64,000 nucleotides of DNA, taken from the NCBI RefSeq assembly GCF_024518835.1, contig NZ_JANIGO010000002.1, positions 625,522 to 689,521 of the forward strand, written 5' to 3'. The DNA comes from Limnobacter humi (lineage in GTDB: Bacteria; Pseudomonadota; Gammaproteobacteria; Burkholderiales; Burkholderiaceae_B). Positions 37,546 through 46,351 of the stretch are shown piece by piece; within the stretch, counting starts at the first letter, position 1, and each line of letters starts with the position of its first letter. Under the pieces are notes generated by a model, which saw only the letters and a list, made by a program, of their open reading frames with translations, did no database searches and was not told where the DNA came from. The position numbers and the translations under genes were made by a program.

Positions 37546-37626
<81 letters not shown>

Positions 37627-37632
37627 CTCAAG

Positions 37633-37668
37633 AAGGTCAATCACTTAGAGCGGTGGTTGACCTTTTTG
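37633..37668 (+). terminator. Intrinsic terminator after attachment copy 1
   Basis: AAGGTCAA (37633-37640) pairs with TTGACCTT (37656-37663), and the stem can extend by four more pairs. A T-run follows. It lies 11 bases past the tRNA CCA and would end tRNA-fMet transcription in its present setting. Confidence 0.85.
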
Positions 37669-37897
37669 TTTTGTGACAATAAATGCCGGTTTTGGGTTGG
37701 TGACCTGTCACCAAATGTGAAATTTCCACTCACACAAGTGCCAAAAAATTTCGGGCAATTGACGATAGTCCGAGATTACCCGTTCAAGACCTATGTAAGC
37801 AATCTGGGCCTGTGCAAATTTGTTCATCCAACAACGAAAATTCAGTTCTTGGATTTAACATGACTGGAGCTCCTAGTAACCCTCATCAAAAAACGCC

Positions 37898-38578
37898 ATG
37901 ACAAAACGATCAGAAGCGAAGAACATAAAAGACTCTCCCGCCAAGAAAATCGATGGGTGGCTGTTCAAGGCGAGCGCTAGAATAGAATCTTTGGAGACGG
38001 CCCTAAAAATCACTCCGGGCTTCTTTTGGAAATTATGCGATCAGGGCGACGACTGGTCTTTTCTGATAAAAGTCCATGCCTTACTAGAAATGGCAATCGG
38101 ACACCTAATTCAACAACGTATTGGGATACCAGAGCTTGACTCTCTTATTGAGAAAGCCTCACTAAACGGTGGGACAACAAGCAAAATTAAGATTGCGTCA
38201 GCTCTATCTTTGATTGATAAAGACACCACAAATTTCGTTGACGCTCTTTCAAACTTGAGAAACAAAGCAGCTCACAGAATAGATTCTGTCGCTCTTACCA
38301 TGGATGACTTTATTCAAGCAATCGATGAAAAGGATGTAAAAAATCTATTTCTGAGACGCAGCGCTGATCAGTCAAAAGAATCAATCATGGAGACCGTGAA
38401 AATAGCCCCGCGATTCACGATCTGGATTTCTGCTTTGAACATGCTTACCGAAGTCTATGAAAAGAAAAAAGAGATACTTGCTCCTAGTGCTGTTCAGTAT
38501 ATGTCCAATCATTTCTTGACTGGTGGCTTGCCACTAACGGGACTAAAAGGCTTACTCGACCTACCGACAGACCCGTAG
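37898..38578 (+). CDS. HEPN-like protein, island cargo
   Basis: The protein is 226 residues, mostly helical, with no signal peptide. The stretch SNLRNKAAHRIDS has an Rx4H motif (Arg121, His126). It sits at the end of a helix after a long alpha-helical region (FLIKVHALLEMAIGHLIQQR), the arrangement of HEPN domains, many of which are RNases in toxin-antitoxin and anti-phage systems. This assignment is inference from the motif; the gene could also belong to a non-catalytic DUF4145/MltR-like branch. It is A+T-rich and the only cargo of segment A. No antitoxin-like neighbour is visible. Confidence 0.55.
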   Translation: MTKRSEAKNIKDSPAKKIDGWLFKASARIESLETALKITPGFFWKLCDQGDDWSFLIKVHALLEMAIGHLIQQRIGIPELDSLIEKASLNGGTTSKIKIASALSLIDKDTTNFVDALSNLRNKAAHRIDSVALTMDDFIQAIDEKDVKNLFLRRSADQSKESIMETVKIAPRFTIWISALNMLTEVYEKKKEILAPSAVQYMSNHFLTGGLPLTGLKGLLDLPTDP

Positions 38579-38665
38579 TTCAATTTCATACGCGACGCTT
38601 CGATTCAAACACCAACCACAACTATGCTGTAGGTGTGATTGGTTTTTGGCGGGGCGATAGCAAAA

Positions 38666-39660
38666 TTACGAGTCAAGTTTTTGTATGAGATCATCGCGCC
38701 GTAGATGCGTATAACGCTCCACAATTGTGGTTGTGAGCTGCCCAGTAATTTCCTTCACCTCGAATACAGTAAGCCCGCGCTCAATCCGTCGTGAAACTGC
38801 TTCGTGACGCAGATCATGCAGGCGAAAATCCAGAATACGGGCTCGTTTTACAGCCGTGCCGAACGCACCCGTGATCGCGTCAATCTGCAGGGGGAAAACG
38901 CGTTCCCCGAGCGATAGACCTTTGAGGAATTCAAGCTGCTCAAGTGCTTTCTTGGACAAGGACACAAAACGACGCCGGCCATTCTTCGTTGTATCCAGGC
39001 GAGCCCATCGTTTATCGAAATCGACATGAGCCACTTCAAGTTGCCAAGTTCGCCGCGACGCATGGCCGTTTCGACTGCAAGAACCACATAGGGGCGCAAC
39101 CAATAACTGGGGTGTTCATCACACGAGGCCAGCAGAGATTGAAACTCCTCTTGAGACAGCCGGCGTGAGCGAGCATTTTGAATACTGGGCATTCTGATAT
39201 CTTCGGTCGGGTCGAGAATTTTGCGGAAGCCCCATTCGTATTTTGCGATCTTGAATACCGCTTTGATGACTTCCATATATCGCTTCGCGGCGGCCGGTGC
39301 ATACCCGCTACCAGCCAGCGCATCGCGGAAGTCAGCAATGTGCATTCCTTCAATTTCTTCCAGCTTGCGATTGACCAAGACGGGTTAATACCGAATGGTC
39401 AAGTCAATCCGGTTGCGTTCACTGGCATGGCTTTTTTTGGTGGGTGTGACCACTTCCCTGTAACGAAGCATTGCTGCTTTCAAAGTGGGCACTTCAAGTA
39501 ATCGTTGTCTTTCAGGCTTCGCTCGCTTTAGCTCGGCTTCCATCTGCAAACCCCATTTAAGGGCTTCATGATATGAATCAAAGATTGACGAAATTCCTTG
39601 GTGTCCAGTGACGCGGACACGTGACAAAAAGCGATTGTTCTTTTAAACGATTGTGGGCAT
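38666..39660 (-). pseudogene. Tyrosine recombinase/integrase, inactivated
   Basis: The start is an ATG at 39660 with GGAG five bases upstream. Three lesions break the frame. Codon 6 is TAA (39643-39645). A second in-frame TAA lies at 39385-39387. One base is missing near 39029, so MRRGELGNLKW continues in another frame as AHVDFDKRWARLDTTKNG. Read through, it is a complete phage-type integrase of about 330 residues: N-terminal arm domain, SAM-like core-binding domain, catalytic Arg (AMRRGEL), Lys, HDLRHEAVSR and the active Tyr in VERYTHL. It lies next to attachment copy 2, as expected for its own element. Confidence 0.88.
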
Positions 39661-39766
39661 GACCACTCCTTAAATGTTGACAGTTGATGTCGCTCGGAGA
39701 GTGGTAAATTCACAAGAAAGAACGGCAGAAGCGCTCCCAGCGCGGCTACTGACGTAGCTCGCAACC

Positions 39767-39816
<50 letters not shown>

Positions 39817-39828
39817 TACAAAGCATCT

Positions 39829-39855
39829 AGCCCGGTATACACGACCGGGCTTTTT
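39829..39855 (+). terminator. Intrinsic terminator after attachment copy 2
   Basis: AGCCCGG / CCGGGCT (39829-39835, 39845-39851) is followed by a T-run, 16 bases past the CCA of copy 2. It differs in sequence from the terminators after copies 1 and 3. Confidence 0.87.
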
Positions 39856-39957
39856 GTTTTCTACGGTCTGGGGAAGCATTTCCCTCAAACACCCTACCCT
39901 ACAGACAATGAAAACCAACCGCGCAGGGTGGGTGTTTTCATACAAGCAATGTTGAAA

Positions 39958-40284
39958 TTATCTGCATTGAATTAGCAGGTAGGGTTGACTGGTTAGAGGG
40001 GCCGACGTGTAACTCCCTTGGACTGACCCGAACTGGGCGGTTGAAGTCCCAGATAACGACCCTGTTGAAAACTGCCCCAAAAACTGCCCCCCACTTCTGT
40101 CAAGAACAGAATAGCCAGCGGGACAAATCTCCCCAGCCTTCTCAACACACTTATGCGGAACGGCTGAGCCGCAGTTAATCATGTGTGCCACGTTGCCGTC
40201 AGGCCCCGTAATCTGCTTAGAGGAGGCGCATCCTGCCAATATTGCTACGGCACTAATCAAAACCAAGGAACAAGTCTTTTGCAA
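39958..40284 (-). CDS. Small lipoprotein
   Basis: The protein is 108 residues. The TTG start at 40284 is fixed by a perfect AAGGAGG five bases upstream; a longer ATG frame runs into the IS remnant and is rejected. The signal peptide ends in a lipobox (AILAGC, lipidated Cys19). The mature part has four cysteines and a Gly/Ser-rich tail. I do not recognise the family. The IS3 remnant begins about 60 bases upstream, so the native promoter may be lost. Confidence 0.75.
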   Translation of the reverse strand: MQKTCSLVLISAVAILAGCASSKQITGPDGNVAHMINCGSAVPHKCVEKAGEICPAGYSVLDRSGGQFLGQFSTGSLSGTSTAQFGSVQGSYTSAPLTSQPYLLIQCR

Positions 40285-40343
40285 GTTAACCTCCTTCAAC
40301 TGGACAATACAGGTCATACCTCCAGAACCACGGTTTAGATTCA

Positions 40344-40592
40344 CCCAAACATGGGGCAGGTCACCACGACAATTCGGTGGCTGAAAGCTTCTTTCAACTG
40401 CACAAGCGCGAAAGAATTCGACGCCGAACCTTTGACACCAGAAATCAGGCGCGAGAAGAAATCTTCGATTACATCGAGGTGTTTTACAATCGAAAGCGCA
40501 GGCACTCATTTACCAAAGGGATGTCGCCTGTGGATTTTGAAAATCAGTTTTTAACGAGGCCAACGAGTGTCTAGTTAACTCGGGGCGATTCA
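40344..40592 (+). mobile_element. IS3-family element, 3' remnant
   Basis: The frame reads HDNSVAESFFQLHKRERI and YIEVFYNRKRRHSF through SPVDFENQF to a stop at 40574. This is the C-terminal end of an IS3-family OrfB, including the last catalytic Glu. The expected right terminal repeat (reading inward TGAATCGCCCCGAG) ends at 40592. Everything upstream of the rve tail is missing, so this is a dead fragment. Confidence 0.85.
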
Positions 40593-40775
40593 CAGCAACG
40601 CTCAAACCCACGTCAAAAACAACAACAATATCGAACAAATAAAATATTTTATAAGAGACACAATTTTAAAAAAACACCATTAATTATTATTACAAAAATA
40701 CCAATCAAATCTCATTAAAATAATCTTAAAAAAATATATCAATAAACCTCAGCTAAATCATAGCTTATATTATCT

Positions 40776-40901
40776 ATGAAAGAACGACTTAAGACCTTAT
40801 CTTTAGAGACGGTAACACTCCACTTAACAGAAAAAACAGTAGCCCCATCACAAACAAATTCACGCCTAGATGAGGCGCTATTGAACTTGCCCCCTGAATG
40901 A
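40776..40901 (+). CDS. Possible 41-codon ORF cut by the IS element
   Basis: An ATG at 40776 opens a frame of 41 codons ([17 protein letters not shown]...) in the very A+T-rich stretch between the two IS elements. Its last codons lie inside the IS left end, so it may be the 5' stump of an interrupted gene. No SD is seen and the product is not recognised. The stretch 40593-40775 has no other candidate; it is simply A+T-rich. Confidence 0.25.
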
Positions 40902-40945
40902 CAGTACCGGAGGTATTCCTTAAACTTAGGACTAGGAATACATCT

Positions 40946-41343
40946 ATGTTTACGACTATGAGTTCAGACGGCAAGCCCGAGCGGGTTGAAGTGATTACGG
41001 GTGTCCAGCGCCGACGGCGCTGGACACCTGAAGAGAAATTGGCTCTGGTCCAGGAAACATACCAAACAGGTAAAACGGTTTCCTTGGTGGCCCGCGAAGC
41101 GGGCATCACTGCCAGCCAGTTGTTCCAATGGCGCAAAGCATATTCAGATGGCTCTTTGGTTGCCGTCGGAGCCAATGAGCCTGTGGTGCCAGCATCAGAG
41201 ATGAAAGAGGCATTGAAGCGCATCAAACAATTGGAAGCTGCGCTGGGCCGCAAAACGCTTGAGAACGAAATTCTCAAGGAAGCGGTGGAGTACGGTAAAA
41301 GCCGAAAGTGGATTGCGCACTCGCCCTTGTTGCCCGGGGATGA

Positions 41344-41350
<7 letters not shown>
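40946..41350 (+). CDS. IS2-type transposase OrfA
   Basis: The protein is 134 residues with AGGA eight bases before the ATG. The helix-turn-helix [19 protein letters not shown] is followed by [19 protein letters not shown], and then a leucine-zipper-like stretch ([20 protein letters not shown]). It ends in [13 protein letters not shown], close to the IS2 InsC C-terminus as I remember it. It binds the IS ends. It is intact, although the rest of the element is not. Confidence 0.88.
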
Positions 41351-42307
<957 letters not shown>

Positions 42308-42414
42308 ACCAATTGGCCTCCACGAAAACCGGTGCGGTTCAGTAAGATGTTGAGACTTTGCTGAATGCTAATTCAAAACAAGGGTCTGCGGCCCTACAGT
42401 AAGAAGGACACGCT

Positions 42415-43458
42415 ATGCTCGAACATATAAGGCTTGAACGATTTACGGCCTTTGAAAAATTCAGCCTGAAGTTTTCTCCTGGCTTGAATATATTCATCGG
42501 AGAAAACGGCTCTGGCAAAACGCACCTTCTGAAACTAATCTATGCAGCTTGCGACGTATCTACGGGTCAGAAGAGTTTCGCTGACAAAGTTAACCGAGTC
42601 TTTCTCCCTTCAGACGAGCAAATTGGAAGACTCGTAAAGCGGCGTACAGGAAGTAGTACCGGCAGTGTTGAGATTTCCCGAAGTGTGCAGTCAGACGGAC
42701 AGCGAAAATCAATTTCACTTCGTCTATCGATGTCTAACCATACCAAGGAACCAAAGAAGGCCACGGTATCAGGAGCTTTCAAGCAGTGGCAAGAGAACCA
42801 TCTAACGTCAGTCTACGTTCCGGTAAAAGATATGATGGCCAATGCTCCCGGATTCCGCTCACTCTACAGTCTACGTCACATACATTTCGAAGAAGTCTAC
42901 GCAGATATAATCGATCGCGCCTTCCTTGGGACATTAAAAGGTCCGACCGACAAAGACCGGAAACGCCTGTTAGAAATCCTGCAGCAGTCGATGGAAGGCA
43001 AAGTCGTTACACGTAATGAAGAATTCTTCCTCAAAAGTCCACAAGGTGAGCTGGAGTTCACCCTCTTGGCAGAGGGTATCCGCAAATTGGGATTGCTCTG
43101 GGTGCTAATCCAAAACGGTACGTTGCTAGACGGTAGCGTACTGCTTTGGGACGAACCCGAGGCTAACCTCAATCCAAAGCTGATGCGGACCGTGGTCCAA
43201 ATCTTGATTGAATTACAACGCTTGGGCGTTCAAGTCTTCATCACCACACACAACTACAACCTACTTAAGGAATTTGACCTTCAGCTAATACCAGAGGATG
43301 AAGTGCAGTTTCACAGCCTTTTCCGCGATGATCATCGTAATGTGCAAGTCGCGTCGTTCAGGCGATACGAAGACCTGAAACCAAACTCAATTGACGACAC
43401 ACTTGGCGAATTGACAGATCGAGAGATTCGCCAGCAAATGGGGGGACTAGGTCAATGA
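42415..43458 (+). CDS. SMC/OLD-like AAA ATPase of a two-gene candidate defence system
   Basis: The protein is 347 residues of the ABC-type AAA_15/AAA_21 group. Walker A is GENGSGKTHLL (residues 29-39). An inserted helical/charged region lies at about 45-200. A signature-like LLAEGIRKLGLLW (218-229) precedes Walker B VLLWDEPEANLNP (242-254) and the switch His in FITTHNYNLL (His279). There is no TOPRIM or other nuclease domain in the chain. Its stop overlaps the next gene by four bases (ATGA); that gene looks like a nuclease. AAGGAC precedes the ATG. The hybrid IS ends about 73 bases upstream and may have brought or removed a promoter. Base composition differs from the core. Confidence 0.8.
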   Translation: MLEHIRLERFTAFEKFSLKFSPGLNIFIGENGSGKTHLLKLIYAACDVSTGQKSFADKVNRVFLPSDEQIGRLVKRRTGSSTGSVEISRSVQSDGQRKSISLRLSMSNHTKEPKKATVSGAFKQWQENHLTSVYVPVKDMMANAPGFRSLYSLRHIHFEEVYADIIDRAFLGTLKGPTDKDRKRLLEILQQSMEGKVVTRNEEFFLKSPQGELEFTLLAEGIRKLGLLWVLIQNGTLLDGSVLLWDEPEANLNPKLMRTVVQILIELQRLGVQVFITTHNYNLLKEFDLQLIPEDEVQFHSLFRDDHRNVQVASFRRYEDLKPNSIDDTLGELTDREIRQQMGGLGQ

Positions 43459-43982
43459 AAGTTCGAGCAGATGGTTTTGAGTTCGAATTCCCCGGCGCCC
43501 TAGAAGCCTTTGTTTTCGACGAGAGTGACAAATTAAAGTCCAATTTCCATGGTTTATCACACGCTATGAAGGCCGTGGACCTAGTGGTGGAACTGCCACA
43601 ACATACCCTCTTCATTGAGGTGAAAGATTTCCACTCGCCCGACGATTACAACTTCAACGCGGCGATCTCTAACGACGAGGAGGGCCAGCGACGCAAGCGA
43701 GTAAATCACCTGCGCGATGTATTGGTACACAAGTTTCGCGATACTTGGCTTTATCGTTGGTCCGAACGAGCAAGGGGTACGCCCGGTAAGCAAGTGTTCT
43801 ACCTCTGTTTGCTTAGCCTGGACAACGGCCTGCTAGGGACGGTACGAAAGGAATTGCACAAGGCATTGCCGGTTGGAATTGCCGGTCCACGCTGGCAACG
43901 CGGGCTAGCTGCTTCGTGCGAAGTGCTAAACATCGAACGCTGGAACAAGGTATTTCCTAGTTGGCCGCTGAATCGCTGCTGA
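43455..43982 (+). CDS. PD-(D/E)xK-like nuclease, partner of the ATPase
   Basis: The protein is 175 residues. Residues 38-60 read as a classical restriction-endonuclease core: Asp42 in KAVDLVVEL, then Glu55 and Lys57 in LFIEVKDFHSP (D...ExK). A conserved-looking RRKRVNHLRDVLVHKFRDTWLY helix follows, then a hydrophobic strand (VFYLCLLSLD). No toxin or HNH motif is seen. Translational coupling to the ATPase implies a complex. I do not recognise the family. The nuclease call rests on one motif and its context. Confidence 0.6.
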   Translation: MKVRADGFEFEFPGALEAFVFDESDKLKSNFHGLSHAMKAVDLVVELPQHTLFIEVKDFHSPDDYNFNAAISNDEEGQRRKRVNHLRDVLVHKFRDTWLYRWSERARGTPGKQVFYLCLLSLDNGLLGTVRKELHKALPVGIAGPRWQRGLAASCEVLNIERWNKVFPSWPLNRC

Positions 43983-44093
43983 CGCCACATCTAAAACTAC
44001 AGAAACTGCTACACCACGCGCCTAGGAAGGTTTGAATCTATTTTCGAGCTGCTGATTTAACCAGTATTTCCTGAAAACATTGGATTTTCGATA

Positions 44094-44125
44094 GCGTAGA
44101 TTCAAATCCTGCCCCCGCAACCAAA
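44094..44125 (+). repeat. Attachment-site copy 3 (right end of the island)
   Basis: The last 25 bases (44101-44125) are identical to the tRNA-fMet T-arm, acceptor and CCA region, and the upstream CGTAG part matches with one mismatch. It marks the right end of the island. The core genome resumes with ovoA. Confidence 0.85.
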
Positions 44126-44131
44126 CGCAAC

Positions 44132-44163
44132 AAAAAGCCTGGTCCATTGGACTAGGTTTTTTG
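44132..44163 (+). terminator. Intrinsic terminator after attachment copy 3
   Basis: CCTGGTCC / GGACTAGG (44138-44145, 44149-44156, one G-U pair) is flanked by an A-run and a T-run. It is probably the original tRNA-fMet terminator, now pushed 6.5 kb away from its tRNA. Confidence 0.85.
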
Positions 44164-44197
44164 TTTTCCAGCACTGAAAATCAGCTTTGAATAATGC

Positions 44198-46351
44198 TTA
44201 CTTCCGCTTCCACACCGTGACTTCACTCAAGGTGTGTTGGTGTTTGCGCCGCGTTTCTCGAATCACGAAAGGCACCGCATCAGGCCCCTGCACAAGCTCA
44301 AACCGTGAGCCCAGAATGTCTTTCAGACCATCCAGCGTGGTGTACGACTCACCATCTTTTTTAAATCCACCAATCCATTCAGCTCGGGGGGTGTAGTCTT
44401 CCATCCACGTGTAGGGTGAGGCCAGTACCAGCAAACCGCCCGGGTTCAGTCGTGAAGCCACATCGTCGAGAAACCGGCGGGGTGAATACAGGCGGTCAAT
44501 CAGGTTGGCAGCCAGAATCAAATCAAAACCGGTGAACTGGGCTTTCAAATTGCAGGCATCGCCTTGCCAAAACTCAACCCGCCTTGCAGTCTCTGCCAGC
44601 CCCAATTCATCCAGCCGCCGTTCGTAATAGCTCAGCAACTCTCCTTCATCCTGCAGGGTGTAGCGGATCGAACCCGTCTCAAGCAGGCGTGATCCCACCT
44701 GAATCAGCATGGCTGAGAAATCAATGCCCGTGACCTTCTCAAACACTTTGGCCAGTTCGAAACTGGAGCGGCCTGTGGCGCACCCCAAGTCCAGTGCTTT
44801 GGCGTGGCTGCCGTTGCCATGCCGGGCATGTGCTGCAACGGAAAGGTCGGCCATGGCCTTGGCAAAATTGGGAACACCAAACACTGGGTCACCAAAATGA
44901 AATTCGGCATATTGGGACACCAGCGTGTCATTTTCATAGGTAGACAAGGGGTTTACGGCGGGACTGTTGCTCATGATGTAGCGAAAACCTGCATGCTGAA
45001 AGAAGTGACGACGAAAGGCATAGCGAGACACGTGGCGGGACTGGTTGCCACACGAAATCCAGCTTCCGCCTTTGATGATGTTGTGGCGTTGATCGAATGT
45101 CGGGCTGGTGAAATCATCGTAAACGGGGTGCACCTTGAACCCGTCGAATGGATAGGTGGGTGTTTCGCACCATTGCCAAACATTGCCCACCACATCAAAC
45201 AACGGGCCATGCGCGAATTCATCGACGGGGCAACTGGAGGCCCAATGGTCGGCGTGCAGATTGGCTTGCGCGGGTGCATCATCAGGCACATCGGACAACT
45301 CCGCCAACGCATACAGGCGATGCCATTCATCTTCCGTGGGCAGACGAACTGGCAGACCGGTTTGCTGGGCCTTCCAGCGACAAAATGCGCGGGCCTCATG
45401 GCAATTGGTTTCCACAGGCCAGTTCCATGGCATGGGCGTTTCCCGGCTCAACAGGCGCAAGGCCCATGCACCTGGGCTGCTGGCGTTTCGCACCCAGAAG
45501 GTGGGGTGTTGCGCTTGGGTGAATTGCCGCCAAGCAAGGCCTTCCTCGTCCCAATAATGGTCTGTGGCGTAACCACCCGCATCCACAAACGCTTTGAATT
45601 CTTGGTTGCTGACCAAATACTGCGCCGCCTTGAAAGCGGGTACATCAGCCTGGTGTTGGCCATATTCATTGTCCCAGCCATACACTGGGTCGGTGTGCGC
45701 CCTGCCGAGGTCAACCGGGCCTGCTGGAATATCCACCCAGGTATTGACCGGCGCTGGGCCACTGGCAGAGCATGGCTGCCAGGCTGGATGTGGTTTGATG
45801 TCATGAAGGGCATGCTGGCGCATCAACACCGACGAGGTTTCCAGGTGGATCAGCTCGTGTTCAATGCCCATCAACACAATCCAGAAGGGGTCGTTCCAAC
45901 CGATGGGCACTGAAAACGGGGTGGTGCGAATCACCCGATCAATAACAGCGCGGACCTGCTTGCGGTAATCACGCACCTCGGCCACGGTGGGCCAATCGTA
46001 GTTTGCATCACCCAGGTCATCCCAACTCATTTCATCAACACCCACTGCAAACATGGATTCCAGTCGTGGGTTGATTCGCTGGCTGATTAAACCAGTCAGC
46101 AATAACTTGTTGATAAAAAATGTAGCGGTGTGCCCAAAGTAAAAGATGAGGGGATGGCGCAAAGGAATGGGCTTTTTGTAATAAGCCTCATCGCAACTCA
46201 GCAACTCAAACAGGGATTCGTAGCGGTCGAAGCTGGCATGAAAATACCGCAACAATGCGTCGCGGGTGTGTTCAACCGATGATCCGGTCAGCCGGGGTGT
46301 ACGCAGAAACAGGGGGCAGTCGTCGGGCTGAGTTTGAGCAAGGGCTTTCAT
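44198..46351 (-). CDS. ovoA: OvoA, ovothiol biosynthesis enzyme with fused methyltransferase
   Basis: The protein is 717 residues in three parts. The N-terminal DinB-like iron-binding domain has the non-haem iron motif HELIHLE (HxxxHxE, His165, His169, Glu171). The formylglycine-enzyme-like domain (about 205-470) has GNVWQWCETPTYPF and KGGSWISCGNQSRHVSRY. The C-terminal SAM methyltransferase has LDLGCATGRSSFELA near residue 519. OvoA joins Cys to His as 5-histidylcysteine sulfoxide and, through the fused domain, N-methylates 5-thiohistidine. The OvoB lyase is not adjacent. It lies directly beyond the island boundary, convergent with it. Confidence 0.92.
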   Translation of the reverse strand: MKALAQTQPDDCPLFLRTPRLTGSSVEHTRDALLRYFHASFDRYESLFELLSCDEAYYKKPIPLRHPLIFYFGHTATFFINKLLLTGLISQRINPRLESMFAVGVDEMSWDDLGDANYDWPTVAEVRDYRKQVRAVIDRVIRTTPFSVPIGWNDPFWIVLMGIEHELIHLETSSVLMRQHALHDIKPHPAWQPCSASGPAPVNTWVDIPAGPVDLGRAHTDPVYGWDNEYGQHQADVPAFKAAQYLVSNQEFKAFVDAGGYATDHYWDEEGLAWRQFTQAQHPTFWVRNASSPGAWALRLLSRETPMPWNWPVETNCHEARAFCRWKAQQTGLPVRLPTEDEWHRLYALAELSDVPDDAPAQANLHADHWASSCPVDEFAHGPLFDVVGNVWQWCETPTYPFDGFKVHPVYDDFTSPTFDQRHNIIKGGSWISCGNQSRHVSRYAFRRHFFQHAGFRYIMSNSPAVNPLSTYENDTLVSQYAEFHFGDPVFGVPNFAKAMADLSVAAHARHGNGSHAKALDLGCATGRSSFELAKVFEKVTGIDFSAMLIQVGSRLLETGSIRYTLQDEGELLSYYERRLDELGLAETARRVEFWQGDACNLKAQFTGFDLILAANLIDRLYSPRRFLDDVASRLNPGGLLVLASPYTWMEDYTPRAEWIGGFKKDGESYTTLDGLKDILGSRFELVQGPDAVPFVIRETRRKHQHTLSEVTVWKRK

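Follow-up and report, generated by a model that had tools for sequence, protein, structure and literature searches.

According to its excerpted text, a 2026 survey by Rakesh and Krishnan (PMC12839542) reports pairs of an OLD-type ABC ATPase with an HNH, PD-(D/E)XK or PIN nuclease from 594 taxa. These pairs lie inside or adjoining loci of the BREX or BREX-related type, for which they are proposed to serve as backup effectors. The same text gives PARIS, which senses Ocr and cleaves tRNA, as known company of BREX. The PtuAB proteins of retron Eco7 deplete tRNA-Tyr, directly or indirectly (PMC11555353), and an excerpted review covers OLD ATPase-TOPRIM proteins and the nucleotide-dependent control of GajA (PMC10568477).

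The pair of genes analyzed here lies in a 64,000-nucleotide stretch of Limnobacter humi DNA, referred to below as the window, and matches the models for HEC-02 in PADLOC. HEC systems were reportedly first described in a preprint by Payne and colleagues. The abbreviation stands for Hma-embedded candidate in the excerpted text of PMC12988326, and the HEC work of Payne and colleagues is also mentioned in that text and in an excerpt of PMC11411939. The name thus implies embedding in Hma, whereas the window copy stands alone on a tRNA island in which there is no Hma-sized ORF. The OLD-type ATPase and PD-(D/E)XK dyads surveyed in BREX, as excerpted, consist of the same domain pair as ours; those dyads lie within or beside BREX-type loci whereas the window pair is stand-alone, and we liken them at the level of the domain pair (PMC12839542).

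Results and Discussion

The two genes are both intact and both on the forward strand. The first (42415..43458) encodes a 347-residue ABC ATPase of the Rad50/OLD/PtuA-like kind, as assessed from the ORF list, PADLOC, Pfam, and Foldseek, and it is joined by an ATGA overlap to the second (43455..43982), which encodes a small PD-(D/E)xK-like nuclease of 175 residues, as assessed from PADLOC, its conserved D42/E55/K57, and a structural model. The ORF list and the sequence agree with the original prediction on this arrangement. No promoter-like site was found within 42250-44200. Profile searching, which had been proposed as a check, gives both proteins the name HEC-02 in PADLOC. The ATPase matches HEC-02A (PDLC04213) with an E value of 1.1e-127 and 424 bits over residues 1-343 of 347, and the small protein matches HEC-02B (PDLC04229) with an E value of 3.9e-61 and 204 bits over residues 1-174 of 175, so that both match over nearly their full length and as the same pair. 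All nine diverse partner nucleases taken from other loci also match the HEC-02 nuclease models (9/9); PADLOC uses two naming orders for this pair, and nuclease matches were counted under either. Judged by these profile matches, the window pair is a member of the already catalogued candidate anti-phage family HEC-02. The suggestion that it might be an undescribed variant therefore falls, given the near full-length fit of both proteins to PADLOC models and the BREX dyads of ATPase and PD-(D/E)XK nuclease already in print, as excerpted (PMC12839542). In our literature searches, the name HEC-02 returned, among the matches listed, only one unrelated chemistry paper; a search by architecture terms returned nothing on the HEC-02 pair, judged by title and abstract; and the literature searched yielded no report of an experiment, a mechanism, or anti-phage activity for HEC-02.

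The ATPase matches Pfam AAA_21 with 85 bits (cutoff of 27, E value of 1.3e-23). We read its Walker A as GENGSGKTH, a signature-like motif as AEGxRK, Walker B as DEPE, and the switch His as His279. K35, A219-E220-G221, R223-K224, D246-E247, and H279 are invariant in 11/11 aligned ATPases, the window's included, and neither TOPRIM nor any other nuclease domain is detected by Pfam in the 347 residues; the motifs are thus intact and a nuclease domain absent, as had been predicted. A structural model (10 sequences in the alignment, pLDDT of 72) matches best, by Foldseek, one chain of 8eea, the PtuAB complex from E. coli (E value of 9.7e-13, TM-score of 0.54); Rad50, SMC heads, and the retron Eco8/Ec78 effectors are also matched, with an OLD nuclease at rank 42. 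The closeness of the ATPase head to Rad50 and SMC heads would also suit a DNA-repair or recombination pair of the RecF/Rad50-like kind with no immune role. We consider this very improbable because the distribution is patchy, with the small protein found in 2/100 genomes (the window's own and one other, in the same order), and because the pair is mobile and embedded in defense operons, as described below.

Pfam, NCBIfam, and PHROG yield nothing for the small protein, and its PDB sequence matches are at chance level only. The Asp...GluxLys core that had been predicted for it is nevertheless borne out by alignment: Asp42, Glu55, and Lys57 are invariant in 13/13 aligned small proteins, the window's included. 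A wider alignment of 40 rows, of which one in a wrong reading frame was excluded (L067), has Glu55 in 39/39 usable rows, Asp42 in 38/39, and Lys57 in 37/39. In the structural model (12 sequences, pLDDT of 75, pTM of 0.73, with residues 32-38 and 139-149 below a pLDDT of 50), D42 lies immediately before the strand 43-46, and E55 and K57 lie at the end of the strand 50-56. The D...(D/E)xK active-site pattern on consecutive strands is therefore present in both the alignments and the model. The best PDB matches of the model include Cdn1, the small subunit of R.BspD6I (probability of 0.97), Can2, Nt.BspD6I, Shedu, and XisH, all of which we take to be PD-(D/E)xK proteins. The scores are weak, with no match at E ≤ 0.001, a best E value of 8.8e-3, TM-scores of 0.23-0.39 in the top ten, and unrelated proteins from rank 18 on. 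The predicted fold thus came out PD-(D/E)xK-like, in line with the original prediction, and with no match at that threshold and TM-scores below 0.4, we regard this fold as likely rather than proven. Searches on the viral side gave only weak Foldseek matches to viral models (none at E ≤ 0.001), 139 pattern matches in a scan of viral contigs with none confirmed, and no match in a phage collection.

The partner nuclease sets the pair apart from the known systems with which it had been compared. Septu is also a two-gene module of ATPase and nuclease, and PtuA structures are the nearest in fold to the window ATPase. PtuB, however, is an HNH protein, whereas the window partner has no HNH match and a different, PD-(D/E)xK-like predicted fold; the window ATPase has 347 residues compared with 392-436 for the PtuA profiles listed, and the best PtuA profile in PADLOC gives it 47 bits as against 424 for HEC-02, although the fold is close. 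PARIS likewise has separate genes for its ABC ATPase and its nuclease, but AriB is a TOPRIM partner, for which Pfam and PADLOC give no counterpart in the window partner, and the best AriA model scores 84 bits against 424 for HEC-02. Gabija has an OLD-type ATPase in common with our pair, and the window ATPase shows weak GajA matches; GajA, in contrast, is an ATPase-TOPRIM fusion accompanied by the helicase GajB, while the window ATPase is without TOPRIM and there is no helicase among the island ORFs scanned. We considered filing the pair as Septu, PARIS, or Gabija and rejected this because the partner nuclease differs. The earlier statement that the partner is unlike HNH, helicase, and TOPRIM domains holds, as it has no such match.

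The two genes were said to belong together, and they are found together in other genomes. In a pattern-led scan of GTDB species genomes, the ATPase is directly upstream of the small-protein gene in 12/12 loci; three of these have broken ATPase frames (L009, L014, and L015), and the nuclease of L015 runs off the contig end. When 398 genomes of the phylum were searched with a nuclease profile, an ATPase is beside the nuclease in 18/18 places besides the window's own, three of the nuclease matches being only partial (L019, L031, and L033). A search of these 398 genomes by ATPase profile (E ≤ 1e-60) located 24 places apart from the window's, and a nuclease gene lies downstream in 21 of them. The profile recognizes the nuclease at 16 of the 24, three of them partial, and at five others (L048, L049 via L084, L051, L053, and L057) the ATPase is immediately followed by a small, diverged D...Ex(K/T) gene. 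A nuclease remnant only is left beside the ATPase at L056, and no recognizable nuclease was found beside the ATPases of L047 and L052.

At L086:7838-9930 (also L057), the HEC-02 ATPase has an N-terminal TIR-like domain (ThsB model, E value of 1.7e-13, residues 7-113), and its partner nuclease reads E-V-T where others have E-V-K. The TIR-like fusion and the altered nuclease may represent a swap of effector. This is one case only, since the 17 remaining genomes of that family yielded no further fusion of this kind. At L056 (also L089), the HEC-02 ATPase is followed by the truncated nuclease remnant and then by a gene that reads by eye like a TIR-NTPase, possibly another effector replacement.

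The window pair was predicted to lie in an integrative island. A tRNA-Met island is indeed present, but it consists of two units and not one. The tRNA-Met gene (CAT anticodon, found with ARAGORN at 37546..37622 on the forward strand) serves as the integration site of both. Its 3′ end recurs as three identical 25-bp copies on the forward strand, att-like repeats at 37600..37624 (the tRNA 3′ end itself), 39790..39814 (96% identical to the first copy over 55 nt), and 44101..44125, where 100 shuffles gave a mean of 0.00. These three copies point to two tandem islands, with the second copy as their shared border, the third as the right border of the second island, and the pair in the second. The first island contains a broken tyrosine integrase on the reverse strand (38666..39627), which is in ORF pieces over several frames and has its Pfam Phage_integrase match split over two ORFs. 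The integrase thus belongs to the first island, while the second holds transposase genes and the pair, with no integrase among the ORFs scanned there. The transposase genes (40898..42307, forward strand, Pfam HTH_Tnp_1 and rve), the second of which is in pieces, lie between the island border and the pair and are presumably IS3-type. The first island also carries a 226-residue HEPN/DUF4145-like gene (37898-38578; DUF4145 at 22.2 bits, just under the cutoff of 23.1), possibly a second defense gene. The pair is A+T-richer than its surroundings, as had been stated, with a GC content of 48.9% compared with 56.4% for the rest of the window once the tRNA and both islands are set aside; the islands have 48.0%.

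In 13/15 other genomes of the genus, the tRNA-Met gene is beside the same neighbor gene (thioesterase-like by eye). Downstream of the tRNA, over the 1.3 kb or less that was compared, 12 of those 13 resemble the window for no more than the first 140 bases; the thirteenth (L137) has a relative of the first island, and a relative of the HEPN/DUF4145-like gene is beside the same tRNA there. We read the site (37546-44125) as a probable hotspot for integration within the genus. In an empty-site comparison, no copy of the repeat adjoins the gene right of the island in the loci examined from other genus members. Elsewhere, eight plasmid records contain the ATPase at E ≤ 1e-10, of which six were examined. 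On a small Paracoccus plasmid (L061:5252-8199), an HEC-02 pair adjoins a tyrosine recombinase and is near a type ISP restriction-modification gene.

The tRNA island here and the plasmids elsewhere could also be accounted for if the pair were a toxin-like module for competition between mobile elements or for their maintenance, and not directed at phage. This reading appears unlikely to us, as the occurrence of such pairs within BREX and Hma operons argues for defense and the pair includes no antitoxin-like small gene.

A survey of the neighborhoods of homologues, which had also been proposed, found conserved pairing together with recurrent embedding in BREX and Hma. The survey comprised 44 rows, of which one was a duplicate record, leaving 43 distinct neighborhoods; L015, on a 3-kb contig, was excluded. 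Genes were labeled BREX or Hma when similar to proteins of L004, L008, L058, L063, L083, and L085 that were annotated or had been named by PADLOC, and the BREX-2 "BrxC/PglY" label of L063 was guessed from position. BREX genes adjoin the pair or lie within two genes of it in 15/43 neighborhoods (L004, L005, L007, L008, L010, L012, L013, L014, L058, L060, L063, L068, L069, L076, and L080), and Hma genes occur in 2/43, with the pair between HmaB and HmaC at L083 and next to HmaB at L085. The other 26/43 have no BREX or Hma genes by the homology used; several of these are on short contigs (e.g., L011, L066, and L075), which makes the BREX counts lower bounds. Among the close relatives, 8 of the 11 examined (out of the 12 loci of the pattern scan) are in or beside BREX. 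On annotated plasmids, the pair is between brxC and pglX in Methylomonas koyamae pLM6 and directly behind the BREX-2 pglX in Polaromonas pPNAP01; Sphingobium pTomMM15c has the gene order of pLM6, its flanks being named by similarity to that plasmid. The pairs of Zoogloea (L004) and Limnohabitans (L005) are both between brxC and pglX. The Zoogloea flanks are BrxA, BrxB, BrxC, and PglX by PADLOC, while for Limnohabitans PglX is named by PADLOC and BrxA, BrxB, and BrxC by similarity. When neighbor proteins were run against PADLOC, 10/18 matched and 8/18 did not (2/10 in one set and 6/8 in the other). Genes in the neighborhoods were called with a simple longest-ORF script, which missed the L005 ATPase seen by other searches. 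The kinship with anti-phage systems that had been proposed thus stands in fold and in gene company; the activity itself is what we infer from them.

Such embedding raises the reading that the pair is an accessory part of BREX or Hma, unable to work apart from them, which would make the window copy stranded cargo. The 15 BREX and 2 Hma neighborhoods and the position between brxC and pglX at L004 and L005 favor it, whereas the 26 neighborhoods without such genes, some of them on short contigs, do not. The window copy bears on this directly. Searches of its own genome for BrxC (family and protein) and PglX (protein) found nothing, and the 4.3-kb island has no ORF of the size of brxC, pglX, or pglZ; the BrxC family search matched in 2/14 control genomes, and the BrxC and PglX protein searches were run without a positive control. 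The window copy therefore does not depend on any BREX system of the searched kinds in the same genome.

Phylogeny of the ATPase groups the window, with good support, with three relatives: L005 and L004, both in BREX, and L006, in which no BREX was found in flanks of up to 8 kb. The ATPases of these close relatives, whether inside BREX or apparently alone, are 84-87% identical. The tree has 39 rows, with 11 BREX rows instead of 15, as it is without L009 and L014 (broken ATPase frames), L087 (a duplicate of the L062 record), and L060, L068, and L069 (dropped during trimming). Context labels are not clustered on it. The BREX label requires 9 changes, at least 8 of them on well-supported branches, and shuffled labels equal this in 170/500 trials; the number may be too high because rows on short contigs (L011 and L066) are labeled as other. 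With that reserve about short contigs, the tree suggests several entries of the cassette into BREX and exits from it. Compared with L004-L006, the window copy is close to saturation at silent sites, whereas at amino-acid-changing sites the difference is 9-10% for the ATPase and 12-21% for the nuclease. Near-saturated silent sites with so little amino-acid change indicate that both genes have been under strong constraint along these branches, that is, by this comparison, under strong purifying selection.

A stranded part working only with BREX or Hma thus seems quite unlikely to us, as the window copy is intact and strongly constrained, yet no BrxC or PglX was found in its genome. The at least 8 well-supported label changes tell against it too, with the caveat that they are inflated if the short-contig rows are BREX.

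We favor, as the probable reading, a self-contained HEC-02 anti-phage module in which the ATPase gates the nuclease, and an infection cue releases it to cut nucleic acid and stop the phage. The ABC ATPase would form a head-to-head, ATP-dependent assembly, PtuA/OLD-like, that holds and gates the small nuclease. A phage cue, which may be unusual DNA ends or intermediates, a drop in nucleotides, or an anti-restriction protein, would change the state of the ATPase, and the nuclease would then be released to cut nucleic acid, most likely DNA, so that phage growth stops. By analogy with PtuAB, GajA, and PARIS and from the fold class, gating of the nuclease by the ATPase, with release on infection, is the most likely arrangement. 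Because the window copy is alone, it should work without an adjacent modification enzyme, and the distinction between self and non-self would come from the trigger of the ATPase and not from methylation.

A PARIS-like alternative differs in cue and target. The pair would be a backup abortive-infection module that senses Ocr-like anti-restriction proteins and cuts host nucleic acid, possibly tRNA. This is possible but, in our view, doubtful: the nuclease is PD-(D/E)xK-like and not TOPRIM or HNH, the PD-(D/E)xK superfamily mostly cuts DNA, and there is no restriction system beside the window copy to guard. PARIS nevertheless has the same class of architecture, an ABC ATPase with a separate nuclease, and the same BREX company, and its sensing of Ocr and cleavage of tRNA, as given in the excerpted survey (PMC12839542), offer a precedent, as does the depletion of tRNA-Tyr by retron Eco7 PtuAB (PMC11555353). 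The latter means that DNA as the target of the self-contained module is not safe.

Conclusions

The self-contained HEC-02 module would be a portable cassette that BREX and Hma operons have repeatedly acquired as a backup effector and that here travels alone. More tentatively, HEC-02 may be a self-sufficient cassette, an ATPase-gated PD-(D/E)xK nuclease with its own infection sensor, that repeatedly enters and leaves BREX and Hma and is borrowed by BREX as a second line for when its primary response is blocked, in which case the window copy would be a recent escape. The window pair is a good example of a catalogued kind whose nearest relatives are mostly in BREX operons. Close relatives that are inside BREX (L005 and L004) and apparently alone (the window and L006) provide a clean test case for the question of whether embedded "backup effectors" work alone or need their host system.
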